IMG/VR virus record: IMGVR_UViG_3300047409_000184
Coordinates: 1-28,160 of that record
DNA length: 28,160 nt
DNA from: a virus
Reading direction: 5' to 3' (one strand)
Part shown: in pieces, positions 2,923 through 26,920 of the stretch
Layout: each line of letters starts with the position of its first letter
Position numbering within the stretch: position 1 is the stretch's first letter
Program-made: the position numbers and the translations under genes
The notes under the pieces: generated by a model
Told to the model about the DNA's origin: nothing
Database searches by the model: none
Seen by the model: only the letters and a program-made list of their open reading frames with translations

Positions 2923-3735
2923 TCATCGCGCAGCCATCTCGCGCATCATCCATTGATCGACCCATTGCAACTGCAAGTCGCATATCCGTTTGCGCTCGGG
3001 ATCGCCCATGATCCTGCGCTGTAGCTCGGCCAAGGGTGGTACTAGCACCACCAGGTCCTCGGCCTGCACACCCAGGGCATTGCACCACCACTGCCGTACC
3101 TTCTGCCCTGGAGCACCAACGATCACCCATGCGGTACGCTGGGCAGGCTCATGTGCAAGGGCAGCAAGCATGGCGTTGCGTTCCTGCAACAGTACGTTAG
3201 TTATATACTCTGGCCTATTGCGGCCATACCCATAACCCCTTGCGATAACATCGAGATCAATGACTATGTCAGTAGTGCTGGCGTTATCCCGCACATAGGT
3301 AGACTTCCCTGATGCGGGTGGGCCACAGACCAGAACAACCCTGCACCCTGGCCTTGGCAGGGATGGGCGCGTGTAACTACCAGACCAGGCCGCAGTCCTT
3401 AACTGCCTGGCCTTAAATGTCTTTCTCTCGTGGTGTACCGCACACAGGCACTGCCCATTCCACACATCGAACGGGTGTCCACCATCACGTAATTCGATGA
3501 CGTGGTCGGCGTACATGCGATGGGCTGGGTGTGCCTTCCGGCACCTTTCCCCATCCTCGATATGCTCGCACCGATTCCCTGCCCTGAACACGACCTGGGC
3601 GCGCCAGGCCCGAAAGGCCGGCGTGTTGTAGATTGCATCCGGCCGCTTTTGCGGTGCCTGGATAGTCCGCGTGCTGAGAGTGCGGAACAGCGGGGCCAAA
3701 CGCCGAACCTTGGCCGGCCGTAGACCCATCGCCAT
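2923..3735 (-). CDS. HNH nuclease fused to P-loop (AAA/PNK-like) kinase
   Basis: The 270-residue product has two domains. The N-terminal part (about 33-112) is an HNH endonuclease: C56 and C65, then ADHVIELRDGG with D77-H78, N93 and LCAVHHERKT with H101-H102. The C-terminal part (132-270) is a P-loop NTPase: VVLVCGPPASGKST (Walker A, 138-146), a DLD that could be the catalytic or substrate acidic site, AWVIVGAP, and a basic lid DPERKR. The second domain is like polynucleotide-kinase and zeta-toxin kinases, including kinases of phage base hypermodification; end processing is an equally good guess. The start at 3735 (ATG-GCG-ATG) is chosen because upstream sequence in this frame overlaps the neighbour gene and is not protein-like; 3729 is the alternative. 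Confidence 0.8.
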   Translation of the reverse strand: MAMGLRPAKVRRLAPLFRTLSTRTIQAPQKRPDAIYNTPAFRAWRAQVVFRAGNRCEHIEDGERCRKAHPAHRMYADHVIELRDGGHPFDVWNGQCLCAVHHERKTFKARQLRTAAWSGSYTRPSLPRPGCRVVLVCGPPASGKSTYVRDNASTTDIVIDLDVIARGYGYGRNRPEYITNVLLQERNAMLAALAHEPAQRTAWVIVGAPGQKVRQWWCNALGVQAEDLVVLVPPLAELQRRIMGDPERKRICDLQLQWVDQWMMREMAAR

Positions 3736-12253: not shown

Positions 12254-12469
12254 ATGTCGCGTGCTGCCGCCAGGTTTCGTGAGGCCGATATTGCCCGCAT
12301 TTTCAAGGCGGCGGGCAAGGCCAAGGTTGCGGTGCAAGTGGTGATCCGGCCGGACGGCGAGATCGTGGTTTCGACTCTCGACGGCCCCGTGCCTTTGACG
12401 AGCGGCAATGAATGGGACGAGCTCAAGCATGGCCAAGATCAGACTAGCCTACGTTCACGAATTCGCTGA
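12254..12469 (+). CDS. Small integrase-associated protein, unknown function
   Basis: The 71-residue protein, MSRAAARFREADIARIFKAA, has a helix then a strand pair, VQVVIRPDGEIVVSTLD, and ends NEWDEL plus a tail. The motif ARF...D..R..KAA....V.V.I.PDG.I.....NEWD is recurrent just upstream of tyrosine integrases in Rhizobiales prophages, so it is likely genuine. It overlaps the integrase start by 41 bp. Function unknown. Confidence 0.65.
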   Translation: MSRAAARFREADIARIFKAAGKAKVAVQVVIRPDGEIVVSTLDGPVPLTSGNEWDELKHGQDQTSLRSRIR

Positions 12470-13502
12470 TCGCCACGGCACGGTCCGGCGTTACTTCCGA
12501 CGCCGCGGCAGTCGTATCCCACTGCCCGGCCTGCCCGGCTCCACAGAGTTCAGCGACGCCTACGCGCGAGCGATCGATGAGGCACCGCCGCCGGCCGAGG
12601 TCGGCGCCAGCCGCACCTTGCCCGGCAGCATCAACGCCATGGCAGTCGGCTATCTCGGCTCGGCGGCGTTTTACAATTTGGCGCCTACATCGCAAACGCA
12701 ATATCGCCGAATCCTCGAAGAGTTGCGGCAGGCACACGGCGATAAGCACATTGCGAAACTGGAGCGCCGGCACGTCGTGCTCATGCTCGATGCCAAGTCC
12801 GAGACGCCTTCGGCGGCGCGTGATTATCTGCGGTGCCTGCGGCTGTTGGTGCAATACGCAATCAAGCTCGGCATCCGCGACAACGACCCAACGGTGGGCG
12901 TGCGGGTATCGCTGCCCAAAAGCGGCGGGTTTCGCACTTGGAGCGAGGACGATATCACCGCCTTCGAGCTAGCCTATCCGATTGGCTCGAAGCCCCGCCT
13001 GGCGCTCGCGTTACTGCTTGGCACGGCACTGCGCTGCGCTGACGTAGTGCGCGTCGGGCGTGGCAATGTTCGCAACGACACGATCACGATCACGCAGCAG
13101 AAAACCAAGACCACGCTCGCCATCCCGGTCACGGCCGCGCTGGCAGGCGCCATCAACGCCATGCCGGGCGAGGCAATGGTGTTCCTGCTAAACGAGCATG
13201 GTCGCGCATTCACCGCGAAGGGGTTCGGCAAATGGTTCACGGCGCAGTGCCAGCGGATCGGCCTGCACGGTGTGTCGCCTCATGGTCTGCGCAAGGCGGC
13301 CTGTCGCCGGCTGGCCGAGGCCGGATGCTCGGCCAATGAGATCGCCGCCATCAGCGGCCATAGGAGTCTCAACGAGGTCGCCCGCTACACTCGGGCCGTC
13401 GACCAAGCGCGCATGGCGCGCAACGCCATGGCGCGGACAGAAGGGCAACCTCGATTGGCAAACTTCGATTCGCCGACTGGCAAACCTGCTCAGAAACGCT
13501 GA
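12429..13502 (+). CDS. int: Tyrosine recombinase / phage integrase
   Basis: The 357-residue protein is a tyrosine integrase that joins attP and attB in lysogeny. An N-terminal arm/core-binding part (about 60-160: INAMAVGYLG..., QYRRILEELRQ, YLRCLRLLVQYAIKLG) precedes the catalytic domain with R202 (GTALRCAD), a Lys in QQKTKTT near 225-227, H285-x-x-R288 (PHGLRK), H311 (GHRS) and the nucleophile Y320 (ARYTR). All catalytic residues are present. The ATG at 12429 starts the conserved MAKIRLAYVHEF segment; 12408 is an upstream alternative. In an integrated prophage the integrase normally lies at an end, but here phage genes continue on both sides. Confidence 0.9.
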   Translation: MAKIRLAYVHEFADRHGTVRRYFRRRGSRIPLPGLPGSTEFSDAYARAIDEAPPPAEVGASRTLPGSINAMAVGYLGSAAFYNLAPTSQTQYRRILEELRQAHGDKHIAKLERRHVVLMLDAKSETPSAARDYLRCLRLLVQYAIKLGIRDNDPTVGVRVSLPKSGGFRTWSEDDITAFELAYPIGSKPRLALALLLGTALRCADVVRVGRGNVRNDTITITQQKTKTTLAIPVTAALAGAINAMPGEAMVFLLNEHGRAFTAKGFGKWFTAQCQRIGLHGVSPHGLRKAACRRLAEAGCSANEIAAISGHRSLNEVARYTRAVDQARMARNAMARTEGQPRLANFDSPTGKPAQKR

Positions 13503-14644: not shown

Positions 14645-14923
14645 TCACGGCTTCGGCTTGTTCAGCTCGCGGGTCATGATGTCGACAATCCGTTCGAGCC
14701 GCTCCTTGTTTTCCCTGGTCTGGCTCTCCAGCACGGTGAGCCTGCCGTCAATCTTCTCCAGATGCGGCGACCCGCGCACCTCCAATGTATTGACGCGCGT
14801 CTCGAGCCGCACCGAATAAGCCACGATGCTGATCACCGCGGCGCCGATGGCGATGGCCTGCGCAACAAGAAAATAAACGAGCGTCTGGTTCTCCGAGAAC
14901 CAGGACCGCACGCTCGTCATCAT
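14645..14923 (-). CDS. Small membrane protein with coiled coil, lysis-region (holin/spanin-like)
   Basis: The 92-residue protein has one transmembrane helix (about 15-37: VYFLVAQAIAIGAAVISIVA) and then a charged heptad-like region (RLETRVNTLEVRGS, KIDGRLTVLESQTRENKERL) ending in a basic, Pro-rich tail. This topology occurs in phage lysis clusters as an accessory membrane protein, DUF-type holin-like protein or inner-membrane spanin. It is the last gene of the late operon, directly after the endolysin (TGATG overlap). Holin identity is not shown; one helix would fit a class III holin or a spanin. Confidence 0.6.
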   Translation of the reverse strand: MMTSVRSWFSENQTLVYFLVAQAIAIGAAVISIVAYSVRLETRVNTLEVRGSPHLEKIDGRLTVLESQTRENKERLERIVDIMTRELNKPKP

Positions 14924-15864
14924 GGCCGACGATACGGAAAGATAACCTCGACCTCGTCATCGGTTTTGAGGCCGAGGTCGGCCAGCAGGCCAGGGCTGAG
15001 ATCAGCGACCCGGCCGGTATTCTCGTTCGGCCCCCAGTCGGCCGGGAATGCCGTCAGCTCGATGCCGCCCGCGCGCACCAGCGCGAGCTCCTCGCGCATC
15101 ATCGCCTTCGGCGTCACGGCGTAGTCCCACCGGCAGGCCACATAGTGAACGTGCTGATTTAGTCTCCGCGCCAGGCCGGTCGTCCCTTCCGGCTGATACG
15201 GCAGGAACAGATGCGGCGCCTGCTCGACCTCGGAAATGAATGCCAAACCTTCGCTCGGCGATACGCCGGTGTCGTCCGGCCCGCCGAAATGCGAGCACTT
15301 GCCACTGACCTTGAACAGCGGCGCCGGCGCCTCGGCGATACCTTCCAACGGCTCCCCGCCGAGCTCGTCGGCGATGGCCGTGCAAATCTCATAGAACTGC
15401 GCCTCGTAGAGCTTGGCGTCGGCCTCGCTGTCGACGAAACAGATCTCGAGCAGAATCGCCGGCTTCTCGGTGTTGTTGAGAAAGAACAGGTCGGTGGTCC
15501 GCTTCGCGCCGCGGTTGATGAAGCCGCAGGAGGCAATGGCGGCGGACATCTCGGCGGCGAGCGCCTCTTGCGTCACGTACCAGACCTCGGTGCCGACGGG
15601 ACCTTCCCGCTGTTCAAATGCATTGAAGTGGCAACTGATATCGACATCGCGTTCTTGCGCGTTGTGGAAGTTCACGATCGCATTGAGGTTCTCGTTCTGG
15701 CTGCGACTGCTGTTGTCGTGAAACACCATCACGTCGGCGCCCCGGCTCTGCAGCTCCTCCGCAACGCGGTTGACTACCCTGCGAGCCTCGTCGACCTCGT
15801 CGAGGATGCCGCAGGCGCCGCGGACGTAGAGACCGTGGCCCGACGAGATTACAACTTTTTGCAT
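14920..15864 (-). CDS. Endolysin: N-acetylmuramoyl-L-alanine amidase (Amidase_3) with extra C-terminal domain
   Basis: The 314-residue protein has an Amidase_3 zinc amidase domain (about 1-170): SSGHG with H10, DEVDEAR with E23/E26, HFNA with H79 and LLEICFVDS with E140 as catalytic Glu. It cleaves the amide between MurNAc and L-alanine of peptidoglycan. The C-terminal 125 residues ([20 protein letters not shown] and on) are a second domain, rich in beta segments, maybe for wall binding; [14 protein letters not shown] and [11 protein letters not shown] are the clearest marks. No signal peptide, so it needs a holin or the membrane protein downstream. A GAAAGGG ribosome site lies before the ATG. 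Confidence 0.85.
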
Positions 15865-23245: not shown

Positions 23246-23628
23246 CAGGCGATCACCCTTTGCTCTGCCTCGAGCGTCCACGCGACCTCGGCCGCCCACT
23301 CGTCGCGCGAGGTGTTCCAGGCCGTGACCTTCGCCAGGATGGTCAGCACGTCGCCGGCCCCGTTGGCAGCGCCGAGCCCAGGAATACAGGTGATGGTGAT
23401 GTCCGTCCCCGGCCACACGTCGGTGAGCTCGGGCGCCTCATGGTCGGTGCAGGTGATCGAAACCTTGTGCTGCCGAAACTGCGCCAGCGAGATGTCGGCC
23501 AGCGCCCCGCGGCAGTCGCGCGCCAGAGCTGCCGCCTGGTCGATCGGCGCGAGCGTCATGGTGATGCCGCGCACGGCGTACTGGCTGAAGTCGATGCCGT
23601 CGATTGCGAGCAGCGTGTAGGCAGGCAT
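23245..23628 (-). CDS. Distal tail-like protein
   Basis: The 127-residue protein begins MPAYTLLAIDGIDFSQYAVR and has GITMTLAPIDQAAALARDCR, then a beta-rich segment VSITCTDHEAPELTDVWPGT, DITITCIPG. It is a small beta-type protein between the tape measure and the hub; in siphoviruses this is the place of distal tail or adaptor proteins (lambda M/L region). Family not named with confidence. TGATG overlaps connect it to both neighbours, so expression of the three is coupled. Confidence 0.55.
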   Translation of the reverse strand: MPAYTLLAIDGIDFSQYAVRGITMTLAPIDQAAALARDCRGALADISLAQFRQHKVSITCTDHEAPELTDVWPGTDITITCIPGLGAANGAGDVLTILAKVTAWNTSRDEWAAEVAWTLEAEQRVIA

Positions 23629-25214
23629 CAGCCATACCGGCTCGGCTTGCGACCGCCCGAACGGACCTGCGCCATCGCCGCGGCATTGCGCAACTGATCG
23701 ACCACGGCAGACGACGCGCGCAGGCCGCTGATCTCGGGCAGGCCGGGAAAATGGATGCTGACGTGATTCATCCCGCCGCCGGCAAAGGCCGGGATCGACA
23801 GCCTGGGCGCAACCATGCCGCCCAGGGCAAAGCGGCCCATGCCGTTGAGCACGGCACGCAGATTGCCACCCGAAAAGCGCAGCGCCTCGAGGAAGGCCAG
23901 CACGCCGGGCTGGCTCACGGCGCGCGCCGGCATGATGTGCTCGCCGCGCGAGACCCAGGCGAGGTTTGAGTCACTCGTCCCGCTGCCGCGACCGCCGAGC
24001 AGGCCGCCGCTGGCAAAGCCGTCGCCGCCGCCCGCGGGCGAGGCCGCCGCGCCGGTGCCGGTGAATATGCTTTTGAACGACGCCCACTTCTCGGCCATCC
24101 AGTCCAGCACGCTCTGGAAACTATCCTTGAGCCACTGCCAGGCGTCGCCGACCGGCGTCGTGACCCAGGTCTGAATGGTGGCCTGGACCTCTGCGACGAC
24201 AGCATTGAACGCCGCGGGAATACTTTGAAAAGCAGCAATGATAGGGTCGATGATCGCGTGCTCCAGAGCGCCCAAGCTCTGCAGGTCTTTTATGAAATTA
24301 TCCAGCCCCGCTCCCAAATCCTCGACCGGCGCGGGCGCAAAACTCGAAGCCACAAATGCCGTGGTTAGCTTGGTCCAGGATTGGGCAAGTGCATCCACCG
24401 CCACCTTATGCCGCTCGGCCGCGGCCTGACTTTTCGCGAGTGCCGCCGACCCCTTCTCAATAGACGCGATGGTATCTGGTGGAACCTTCAAACCCTTCAG
24501 CGCATCATCAAAGATGGTTTTCCCGATCGGCGTCAGCCCCTCGCGCCACTTCGCAAGCTCAAGAGTGGCTTTCTGGAAATTCACGCCCAACTTATCCGCA
24601 CTGGCCCCAATATCGTCGATCGATATTTTGGCGTCTTCCAGTTTGGTTACGATCGCCTTCTTCATTGTCTCCGGCGAAGTCAACGCGCTGATGGCGCTGA
24701 AGGTGGTCCTTGCCCGCTTTTCCAAGTTTCCAAGCTCATCCGCGATCAGTGCAATGTTGTTTGATGCCTCTTTCCCGCCGGCCAGCTCCGGGTGCATTTC
24801 CGCACTGACCTTGGCAAACTCGGCCATGGTCGCGGTCGTGGCCTTCAACTGCTCCTCTGCCTCCTTCATCTTGCTCTTAAAGAAAGAGAACGCGGCGGCC
24901 ACCGCGAACACGGACGCGCCAAACGCCCCCAATGTCATCCCAATCCTTGCAACCCCCACCGCGGTGCCGGCGAGCTCGCCCGCGCCGAACTCCTTCATGA
25001 TCTTGCCGAGGGATCGCAGCTCGCGCGACGAGACGCCGGACTTCTGCGAAACCTGGTCCAGCCCCTTGCCGAGTTCCAGCGTGCCGCCAGCGGTGCTTGC
25101 AGCCGTGGCCTGGACGTCCTCGGTCGCCTGGCCGACCTTCTTGATCTCGGCGGCAGCCTGGTCGGCCCCGTCGACTTCAATCTTGATGGTCTGGACGATG
25201 TCGTCGGATGCCAT
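23628..25214 (-). CDS. Tail tape measure protein
   Basis: The 528-residue protein has the features of tape measures: an N-terminal coiled-coil-like part (about 1-75: IKIEVDGADQAAAEIKKVGQ, LRSLGKIMKEFG), a hydrophobic helix (about 85-112: VGVARIGMTLGAFGASVFAV), long Ala-rich helices in the middle, and a C-terminal Gly-rich repeat (GDGFASGGLLGGRGSGTSD, GGMVAPRLSIPAFAGGGMN). It sets tail length; at about 0.15 nm per residue, 528 residues would give a tail of about 80 nm (inference). It lies between the 180-residue tail protein and the distal tail protein, as in lambda. Confidence 0.85.
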   Translation of the reverse strand: MASDDIVQTIKIEVDGADQAAAEIKKVGQATEDVQATAASTAGGTLELGKGLDQVSQKSGVSSRELRSLGKIMKEFGAGELAGTAVGVARIGMTLGAFGASVFAVAAAFSFFKSKMKEAEEQLKATTATMAEFAKVSAEMHPELAGGKEASNNIALIADELGNLEKRARTTFSAISALTSPETMKKAIVTKLEDAKISIDDIGASADKLGVNFQKATLELAKWREGLTPIGKTIFDDALKGLKVPPDTIASIEKGSAALAKSQAAAERHKVAVDALAQSWTKLTTAFVASSFAPAPVEDLGAGLDNFIKDLQSLGALEHAIIDPIIAAFQSIPAAFNAVVAEVQATIQTWVTTPVGDAWQWLKDSFQSVLDWMAEKWASFKSIFTGTGAAASPAGGGDGFASGGLLGGRGSGTSDSNLAWVSRGEHIMPARAVSQPGVLAFLEALRFSGGNLRAVLNGMGRFALGGMVAPRLSIPAFAGGGMNHVSIHFPGLPEISGLRASSAVVDQLRNAAAMAQVRSGGRKPSRYG

Positions 25215-25219
25215 GTGCC

Positions 25220-25762
25220 CTAAGCCTTTTTCATCTCGTCCATGAACAGATCACGTTGCTTCTTGGCCTCGTCACGAATGATCCGCAGTAGGTGGAATTT
25301 CCTGCGAATGATGACCTTCTTGACCCCGATGTACCGCACCCGCCTGTCATCGGCCGACATCAGCAACGGCGTGTCGCGCTTCTTGCGGCGCTTGACCTGG
25401 AACAGGCGGCCGGGAAAGTCGCGCGCCGGCGGCCCGCCGGGGTCGACCGGAATCCACAGCAACGGCTTGCCTTTGATGGTCGCCCCGCTCTGAAAGACGC
25501 GCCAGAGCGGGTTCGAGTGATGAAAGACAATCGACCTGCTCTTGCCGCCCTCACCCGTGATTTCGTAGGTGAAGCCGGATATCCAGGCGCCGGTAAACCG
25601 GCCGGCGGCGGCGATGTCGGCGCGCCCCTCGCGAAGGATGTTGTCGGCGACCTGCTTGGTGGAGGAAGTCGCCGCCGTCTGGATGCGCTGCTTTAGCTTT
25701 GCAACGGTCTCATCCAGTTGCGGCTTTATTGACTGTGATTTGAGGCGAACGCGGACTGCCAC
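25220..25762 (-). CDS. HK97 gp10-like / DUF6441-like minor tail protein
   Basis: The 180-residue protein is basic, begins MAVRVRLKSQSIKPQLDETV and has GRFTGAWISGFTYEITGEGG, HHSNPLWRVFQSGATIKGKP and LLWIPVDPGGP. The F..GATI.G..LLWIP pattern is like the DUF6441 and HK97-gp10 type tail-completion proteins. Its position, after the tail chaperone and before the tape measure, is unusual for gp10-like proteins, which usually precede the tail tube. It starts at GTG 2 bp after the TAG of the frameshifted chaperone. Family name is by pattern and should be checked. Confidence 0.55.
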   Translation of the reverse strand: MAVRVRLKSQSIKPQLDETVAKLKQRIQTAATSSTKQVADNILREGRADIAAAGRFTGAWISGFTYEITGEGGKSRSIVFHHSNPLWRVFQSGATIKGKPLLWIPVDPGGPPARDFPGRLFQVKRRKKRDTPLLMSADDRRVRYIGVKKVIIRRKFHLLRIIRDEAKKQRDLFMDEMKKA

Positions 25763-25764
25763 GG

Positions 25765-26387
25765 CTAAGGCGTTCCCAGTTCCTTGATTGTTTTCTCGAT
25801 GGTCTTGCCGTCGCCCTGCGCGCCGATGGCGGCGATCGCGAGATCGTTCGCCCGCTCCATGCGATCGAGCCGCTCGTTCAGCTCGCGGTAGGCATCGACC
25901 TGGCGCCAGGTCAGCGTCATTGCATAGTCGGGCGGGAAGCCTCGCCTGATAATGGCGGTGATACCGAGGGCGATTTCTTCAAGCGCACTTTGACGGCCTT
26001 TGCTCCTTCGCCCGGCGCCCCGAGGGTCGACAGACGATTGACGAAGGAGCCAAAACCGTTTGGGAATGTAAGCCGCATAATTGCATCCAGCAGCTTTAAC
26101 TGATCTTCCATCAAAAATTTCTCGTTGGCGTGCTGCTCGTATCTCTCGTCCCCGAGATGCCCGCACCCGGCGGCAATGATCGAGCCGATCGAGGCGCCGA
26201 ACAATTCGATCAGGACTGGCACGATGTTATTGCCGAAGTCTCCGCTCGCCAGCCGCTTGAGATCGGGAAACCGCGACACGATGGATGCGACCGCATTGCC
26301 GTGCAAACCGCGCACGATGATCCGCTCGCCGTTGATCCTGACGACCTCGGATGCCGTCAGCGTTGCTATGTCGAGGAGGTCGGCCAT
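25765..26387 (-). CDS. Tail assembly chaperone GT, made by -1 frameshift of the G frame
   Basis: This 207-residue product joins the first 110 codons of the G frame to 97 codons of the -1 frame. The slip site C_CCA_AAC (26064-26058) is followed after 7 nt (26057-26051) by a perfect 9-bp stem (26050-26042 with 26010-26002). The T part contains LEEIALGITAIIRRGFPPDY and AMTLTWRQVDAY, a pattern (gfp..ya..lTwrqv.aY) seen in tail chaperone T domains, and the -1 frame is open across the whole overlap. G and GT load on the tape measure in lambda-type phages. The first frame ends normally at 25917; an ATG at 25920 (ATGA overlap) could also give a 51-residue T product, but it would lose the conserved T part. 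Confidence 0.8.
25917..26387 (-). CDS. Tail assembly chaperone G
   Basis: The 156-residue product of the normal frame is the lambda G-like chaperone; it begins MADLLDIATLTASEVVRING and has helical repeats GERIIVRGLHGNAVASIVSR, FPDLKRLASGDFG, VLIELFGASIGSII and FLMEDQLKLLDAIMRLTFPN. It lies directly between the tail tube and the tape measure side, which is the canonical G position. Most ribosomes should make G, with a small share making GT. The start overlaps the tail tube stop (TAATG). The last 46 residues, after the slip site, are less protein-like (Pro/Ser-rich). Confidence 0.75.
   Translation of the reverse strand: MADLLDIATLTASEVVRINGERIIVRGLHGNAVASIVSRFPDLKRLASGDFGNNIVPVLIELFGASIGSIIAAGCGHLGDERYEQHANEKFLMEDQLKLLDAIMRLTFPNGFGSFVNRLSTLGAPGEGAKAVKVRLKKSPSVSPPLSGEASRPTMQ
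26002..26064 (-). promoter_or_regulatory. -1 programmed ribosomal frameshift signal
   Basis: Minus strand order: slippery CCCAAAC (26064-26058) in the phase xxC CCA AAC of the G frame, spacer of 7 nt, then GCTCCTTCG (26050-26042), a 31-nt loop and CGAAGGAGC (26010-26002), a perfect 9-bp stem. Slippery site, spacer and stem have the canonical form for -1 frameshifting; the loop is long enough to form more structure or a pseudoknot. Confidence 0.8.
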
Positions 26388-26920
26388 TATGGCACCACCA
26401 CGGCTTCATGGACGGTGAACACACCGAACGTACCGTCCACGTCGTCCTTCTGCACCTCGGCCTCGATCTGCAGCGTGCTGAAGTCGTCGGCGTCGGTGAT
26501 AAACGAGAAATCGCCGGTCGGGTTGATCGAGATGCGGCCGGTGAAGTCCACGTGCTGACCGATGTCGTTGGTGCCCTCGACCATGATGATGCCGGCAACC
26601 TCCAGCTTCTTGAATGCGCTCACCGTAACGCTGCCATCGACATCGGGAGCCCCGAGCTCGCCCAGGGTAAAAAGAGCGAGGTTCGGCCCGTTGATCTCGT
26701 CGAGCGTCAGCTTGATGGTCGCGCCGACTTGCGTGACGGCCGTGAAGTCTTTGACCTTGACGCCCTCGCGCGAGCTGAAGTGCTCTTTTTTCTCCACCGT
26801 CGGCGACCATACAAACGACGGCGCATTGCCGAGATCGACGAAGTCGGCGGCACCGTCCTCCTTGAACGAGACGATGCCTTTTCCGATGTGATAGTTTTGA
26901 ACGCTCGGTGCCGCGGGCAT
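26387..26920 (-). CDS. Major tail (tube) protein
   Basis: The 177-residue protein begins MPAAPSVQNYHIGKGIVSFK and contains FVDLGNAPSFVWSPTVEKKE, HFSSREGVKVKDFTAVTQVG, ATIKLTLDEI and TLGELGAPDVDG. The order, a beta-rich 'G..SF' N-terminus and a central tail-tube-like fold, and the GQHVDFTGRISINPTGDFSF segment, are typical of phage tail tube proteins. It lies immediately before the G/GT chaperone and after the tail terminator, the usual order. It builds the stacked ring tube through which DNA passes. Confidence 0.8.
   Translation of the reverse strand: MPAAPSVQNYHIGKGIVSFKEDGAADFVDLGNAPSFVWSPTVEKKEHFSSREGVKVKDFTAVTQVGATIKLTLDEINGPNLALFTLGELGAPDVDGSVTVSAFKKLEVAGIIMVEGTNDIGQHVDFTGRISINPTGDFSFITDADDFSTLQIEAEVQKDDVDGTFGVFTVHEAVVVP

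Follow-up and report, generated by a model that had tools for sequence, protein, structure and literature searches.

Lambda G/GT-type -1 frameshift signals at a CCCAAAC heptamer in the tail assembly chaperone gene of an uncultivated phage clade

We think it very likely (a probability of roughly 95%, as judged from sequence comparisons) that the viral DNA described here encodes a tail assembly chaperone with canonical -1 programmed frameshifting of the lambda G/GT type. Within the window (that is, the whole 28,160-nt stretch that was analysed), the gene for the chaperone G contains the slippery heptamer C_CCA_AAC, followed by a short spacer and a stem, and the -1 frame continues past the stop codon of G. 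The first-pass annotation had proposed a frameshift cassette at this place, and all of the comparative tests agree with it: CCCAAA together with an open -1 frame is found in 93 of 93 distinct relatives, which is far beyond chance. The signals, their conservation, and the selection on the -1 frame can be read directly from the alignments.

The cassette and the predicted proteins

The features of the cassette and its neighbours are on the minus strand of the window:

26387..26920, minus strand: upstream neighbour, the major tail tube protein (NF052337 phage tail tube protein, 1.5e-24; phrog_807)
25917..26387, minus strand: G, tail assembly chaperone, frame 0, 156 codons encoding 156 amino acids (identified as an open reading frame and by PF23789, Pre_tape_measure)
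26058..26064, minus strand: slippery heptamer C_CCA_AAC, with CCA (codon 109) in the P site and AAC (codon 110) in the A site
26051..26057, minus strand: 7-nt spacer, GGTTTTG
26040..26050, minus strand: 5' arm of the stem, GCTCCTTCGTC, which includes the TTC of codon 115 (zero synonymous diversity)
26002..26012, minus strand: 3' arm of the stem, GGCGAAGGAGC, which pairs with the 5' arm
25765..26058, minus strand: -1 frame after the slip, encoding an Arg-rich linker and the T domain (97 codons and a stop)
25917..25920, minus strand: ATGA, in which a -1-frame ATG overlaps the TGA stop of G; kept in relatives
25220..25762, minus strand: gene between the chaperone and the tape measure, with a weak match to DUF6441 (PF20039, 6.2e-05, below the gathering cutoff)
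23628..25214, minus strand: tape measure protein of 528 amino acids (several tape measure PHROGs, the best at 1.6e-11)

Codons 108-110 of G read TTC CCA AAC, which puts the heptamer (26064..26058) in phase at codons 109-110, as the first-pass annotation had it. The spacer and the perfect 9-bp stem that it described are also there, and the stem is slightly longer than claimed: GCTCCTTCG and CGAAGGAGC form nine Watson-Crick pairs, or 11 pairs (including one G-U) if the stem is extended. After the slip, the -1 frame stays open until its stop codon at 25767..25765, and the next listed open reading frame starts with a GTG at 25762, so the -1 frame does end 2 bp before the next gene. Joining residues 1-110 of G to the 97 residues of the -1 frame would give a GT protein of 207 residues, which is the predicted size. 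G itself runs on for 46 codons past the slip site, and its TGA overlaps the ATG in the -1 frame (CAATGA). The dual-coding overlap is 44-55 codons long.

Both the predicted structure of G and its surroundings fit with a role in tail assembly. G matches the Pfam family PF23789 (Pre_tape_measure) with 28.5 bits (the cutoff is 27), and so do 30 of 30 relatives. The model of G's structure is confident at about residues 12-120 and disordered at residues 126-154. Its best match in the PDB is the tail assembly chaperone of HK97 (2ob9), with 94 residues aligned at 13% identity and a Z of 7.4, which lies in the range where a match may reflect a common arrangement, but which is clear of the lower-ranking matches and agrees with Pfam. 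The genes are in the order tail tube, chaperone, one intervening gene, and tape measure, so that G lies between the tube and tape measure genes. Both the modelled fold of G and the order of the genes are what one would expect of a tail assembly chaperone.

The model of the part that is encoded in the -1 frame has a disordered Arg-rich linker (residues 1-17) and helices at residues 22-38, 51-81, and 84-95. In the predicted GT, this part takes the place of residues 111-156 of G, which are its last helix and tail. The description of this segment as T-domain-like is based on its position, its conservation, and its predicted helical domain; a match to a known T domain in sequence or in fold was not found. 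In profile comparisons, T had no significant match to the T regions of AH2, RcWata, or Enc34, and the fold search with the T model returned generic helical matches only and no known T domain.

We also note a match to phrog_13355, a family of "unknown function" whose members are about 58 amino acids long (58 positions). It matches only 25768-25920, which is T from the Met onward. This restriction to the C-terminal part of T suggests that annotation has caught only a fragment, and judging from the sequence match, phrog_13355 is probably the C-terminal part of the T domain, or in other words a gene-caller fragment of GT.

Conservation of the frameshift signals

Relatives were collected in three overlapping scans of IMG/VR contigs, which gave 213, 226, and 197 relatives that were confirmed by tblastn; the best 80 of each were kept. 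The pooled set has 93 distinct sequences, which are 47-100% identical, and most of them were gathered without using the slip site. The 77 loci that were newly fetched with an exact 17-mer pattern were excluded from the heptamer tally because the pattern contains the heptamer. For the statistics on selection (stop codons and synonymous columns), we used the first 53 distinct sequences. None of 50,697 phage records yielded an isolate that is related by DNA or by G protein, and none of the pattern matches in contigs of representative bacterial genomes was confirmed as a relative.

Across the 93 distinct relatives, CCCAAA is invariant and only the last base of the heptamer varies (C in 88, T in 4, and G in 1). 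The relative with G (L064) has Lys instead of Asn at codon 110, which is the sole amino-acid change there in the first set, but it still has a heptamer, CCCAAAG. C_CCA_AAG is reported to be prone to shifting in E. coli (PMC5009743). For one of the scans, the query was residues 1-104 of a distant G, all of which precede the slip site; the resulting set is therefore free of bias towards the heptamer. It contains CCCAAAC in 59 of 63 distinct sequences (window included) and CCCAAAT in the other 4.

The synonymous sites give a similar picture. Of 45 conserved columns with degenerate codons in the 53 distinct sequences, just five are without synonymous variation: F108, P109, and N110 in the heptamer, F115 in the stem arm, and Q156 in the ATGA. 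At other columns, several codons for P, F, N, and Q are in use.

The -1 frame is free of stop codons from the heptamer to the stop of G in 93 of 93 relatives. In the first 53, it has 0 stops, as compared to about 67 that are expected from synonymous resampling, and the +1 frame has 117. Furthermore, diversity by codon position follows the pattern of frame 0 until about codon 135 and the pattern of the -1 frame at codons 136-156. Since the -1 pattern begins upstream of the ATGA, translation of the -1 frame must already be under way before the ATG on the stop codon of G is reached. Between the heptamer and the ATGA, none of the 93 relatives has an ATG, GTG, or TTG in the -1 frame. In several lineages (L036, at 3001-3536, L050, L074, L179, and L206), only some 24-26 codons of T remain beyond the ATG and G stop; the last helices of T are lost and the upstream part of the -1 frame is kept.

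The stem is more variable. On average, pairing of the 5' arm is stronger with the downstream stretch of the same sequence (mean of -19.35 kcal/mol) than with swapped ones (-16.55 kcal/mol), and 0 of 10000 permutations were as good. The stems are also better on average than synonymous resamplings (-13.8 kcal/mol), with p <= 0.05 in only 33 of 68. In the main class of stems (class A), 93.1% of cells are paired and four pairs have changed on both sides; this covariation is modest, as conserved amino acids are encoded in both arms as well. In L048, L079, L147, and L157, the 3' partner of the arm is another stretch that lies closer to it, and we consider these alternative pairings, predicted from sequence, to be stronger structural evidence than the covariation in class A. 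L024, L029, L068, L073, and L325 have weak stems. Chaperone genes with this type of frameshift often, but not always, have an RNA structure downstream of the slip site. As for whether relatives might have separate genes and lack the slip site or the stem, which was the check that had been suggested, the outcome favours the frameshift as regards the slip site and the -1 frame, which the relatives retain; most of them, but not all, also have the stem in its original or a rebuilt form, and its strength differs among them. The tests of the stem are inflated by the relatedness of the sequences, so although the putative stem is well supported, its support is less firm than that of the heptamer.

Alternative routes into the -1 frame

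If programmed frameshifting is correct, then the majority of ribosomes would make G (156 amino acids). In a minority, the Pro-tRNA on CCA and the Asn-tRNA on AAC would re-pair one base back, on CCC and AAA (tandem slippage), with the stem-loop 7 nt downstream assisting the slip. The shifted ribosomes would make GT (207 amino acids), in which the Arg-rich linker and the helical T domain replace the last helix and tail of G. If the lambda model applies here, the tape measure protein is the expected partner of the G part, T is expected to bring in the tail tube subunit, and the ratio of G to GT would set assembly. We infer the shift in cells, its rate, and the binding partner of T.

Could T instead be a separate gene that is translated from the ATG on the stop codon of G, by translational coupling at ATGA and with no frameshift? 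This overlap is nearly universal. The -1-frame ATG overlaps the stop of G in 92 of 93 relatives, and in the exception (L309), TGA occurs three bases earlier and there is a GTG, with an ATG next. The codon for Q156 is CAA in 53 of 53 sequences. The residue that follows the Met of T is T, S, M, N, or K, but its codon starts with A without exception, so the TGA that ends G is kept in 92 of 93. For example, when Ser is right after the Met, it is encoded by AGY (13 of 13), while TCN accounts for 50 of the 137 Ser codons in T downstream of this position. Also, phrog_13355 matches only the part of T after the ATG. Nevertheless, we consider a separate gene for T very unlikely. Selection already acts on the -1 frame at codons 136-155, before the ATG, and the first of the modelled helices of T (residues 22-38) also precedes the ATG (Met47), so a product that starts at Met47 would be truncated. 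The lineages in which T has been shortened to some 24-26 codons beyond the ATG also argue against a separate gene, and it leaves the frozen heptamer unexplained. On the basis of the upstream selection and these shortened lineages, we reject the ATGA start as the sole route to T.

Ribosomes might use both routes, so that GT is made by frameshifting and a short T' (about 25-60 amino acids) is made by coupled re-initiation at ATGA. This would account for the frameshift evidence as well as for the near-invariant ATG on the stop codon. On the other hand, the ATG may be kept only because T needs a Met and G needs TGA, T' would be without helix 1, and the bases that directly precede the ATG (TTCCCGCCCGACTATGCA) show nothing like a Shine-Dalgarno sequence. 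We suspect that re-initiation does not occur, and we would be somewhat surprised by a three-product locus in which G, GT with a T domain of an unrecognised family, and a re-initiated T' share one dual-coding overlap. Finally, transcriptional slippage or a second slip site farther downstream could lead into the -1 frame, given that any shift that takes place by about codon 135 would reach it. But there is no long homopolymer run, which makes transcriptional slippage unlikely, and from codon 90 onward, no other in-phase XXXYYYZ is common to more than 2 of the 53 relatives. Also, the frozen synonymous sites are exactly at CCCAAAC. We give hardly any credence to either of these routes, and we prefer frameshifting at CCCAAAC.

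Known systems and significance

In phage lambda, which makes gpG and gpGT, a low-level -1 shift adds the T domain to the tail chaperone (reviewed in PMC5009743). The window resembles lambda in having the chaperone gene between the tail tube and tape measure genes and in the predicted -1 shift that adds T. For the T domain here, no relation to known T domains was detected. The slip site of lambda is G_GGA_AAG near the end of G, whereas here, C_CCA_AAC is 46 codons before the stop of G, and GT would lose the last helix and tail of G.

Other phages show parts of this arrangement. -1 frameshifts have been predicted in the same type of gene in AH2 and KL1, with AAAAAAG and GGGAAAC as the slip sites (PMC3483164). 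AH2, which belongs to the Casjensviridae, has the same type of gene in the same place and a tail tube protein that is distantly related to the window's, but its two frames overlap for about 61 nt past the slip, and the window's G is not significantly similar to the G of AH2. G does resemble the chaperone of RcWata (E of 2e-4). As in the window, a single gene separates the chaperone from the tape measure in KL1 and HK97 (PMC3483164). The chaperone of HK97 is also the best PDB match to the model of G (2ob9), at 13% identity. The slip signal of HK97 differs from CCCAAAC. In the Caulobacter phages phiCbK and Colossus, the predicted -1 sites are AAAAAAC and GGGAAAC (PMC3556154), which have AAC in the A site, as here, but a different XXX, and these phages are unrelated; the phiCbK prediction concerns the same type of gene. 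Long overlaps are found elsewhere as well: 79 nt in Enc34 and possibly 124 nt after a heptamer in R16L. A literature search of limited reach found no report of a phage frameshift at CCCAAAC. This appears to be a known kind of frameshift, in an uncultivated clade without isolates among the collections that we searched, and its signals are conserved unusually well across that clade. We view the 44-55-codon overlap, the replacement of the tail of G in GT, the invariant CCCAAA, and the stems with alternative partners as mild novelties.

A few other genes in the window were noted as well. A tyrosine integrase (PF00589) is encoded on the opposite strand at 12408-13502, which suggests that the phage is temperate. 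Among the phage records that the integrase matches are those of Sinorhizobium, Agrobacterium, and Rhodobacter phages, and the best match is from a Pseudanabaena phage. The 648-amino-acid protein at 4915-6861 matches Toprim and AAA_25 and is probably a replication protein of the primase-helicase type. At 14920-15864 there is an N-acetylmuramoyl-L-alanine amidase (Amidase_3), which is a candidate endolysin.

As far as can be judged from sequence, this is a well-supported case of a conserved bacterial -1 frameshift of the CCCAAAC type. It also corrects the annotation: in place of GT, gene callers would report G and a short open reading frame. The natural variation at only the last base of the heptamer, together with the rebuilding of the stem, should be useful for testing what slip sites with AAC in the A site need, and the four rebuilt stems provide a natural series on the requirements for the stem.
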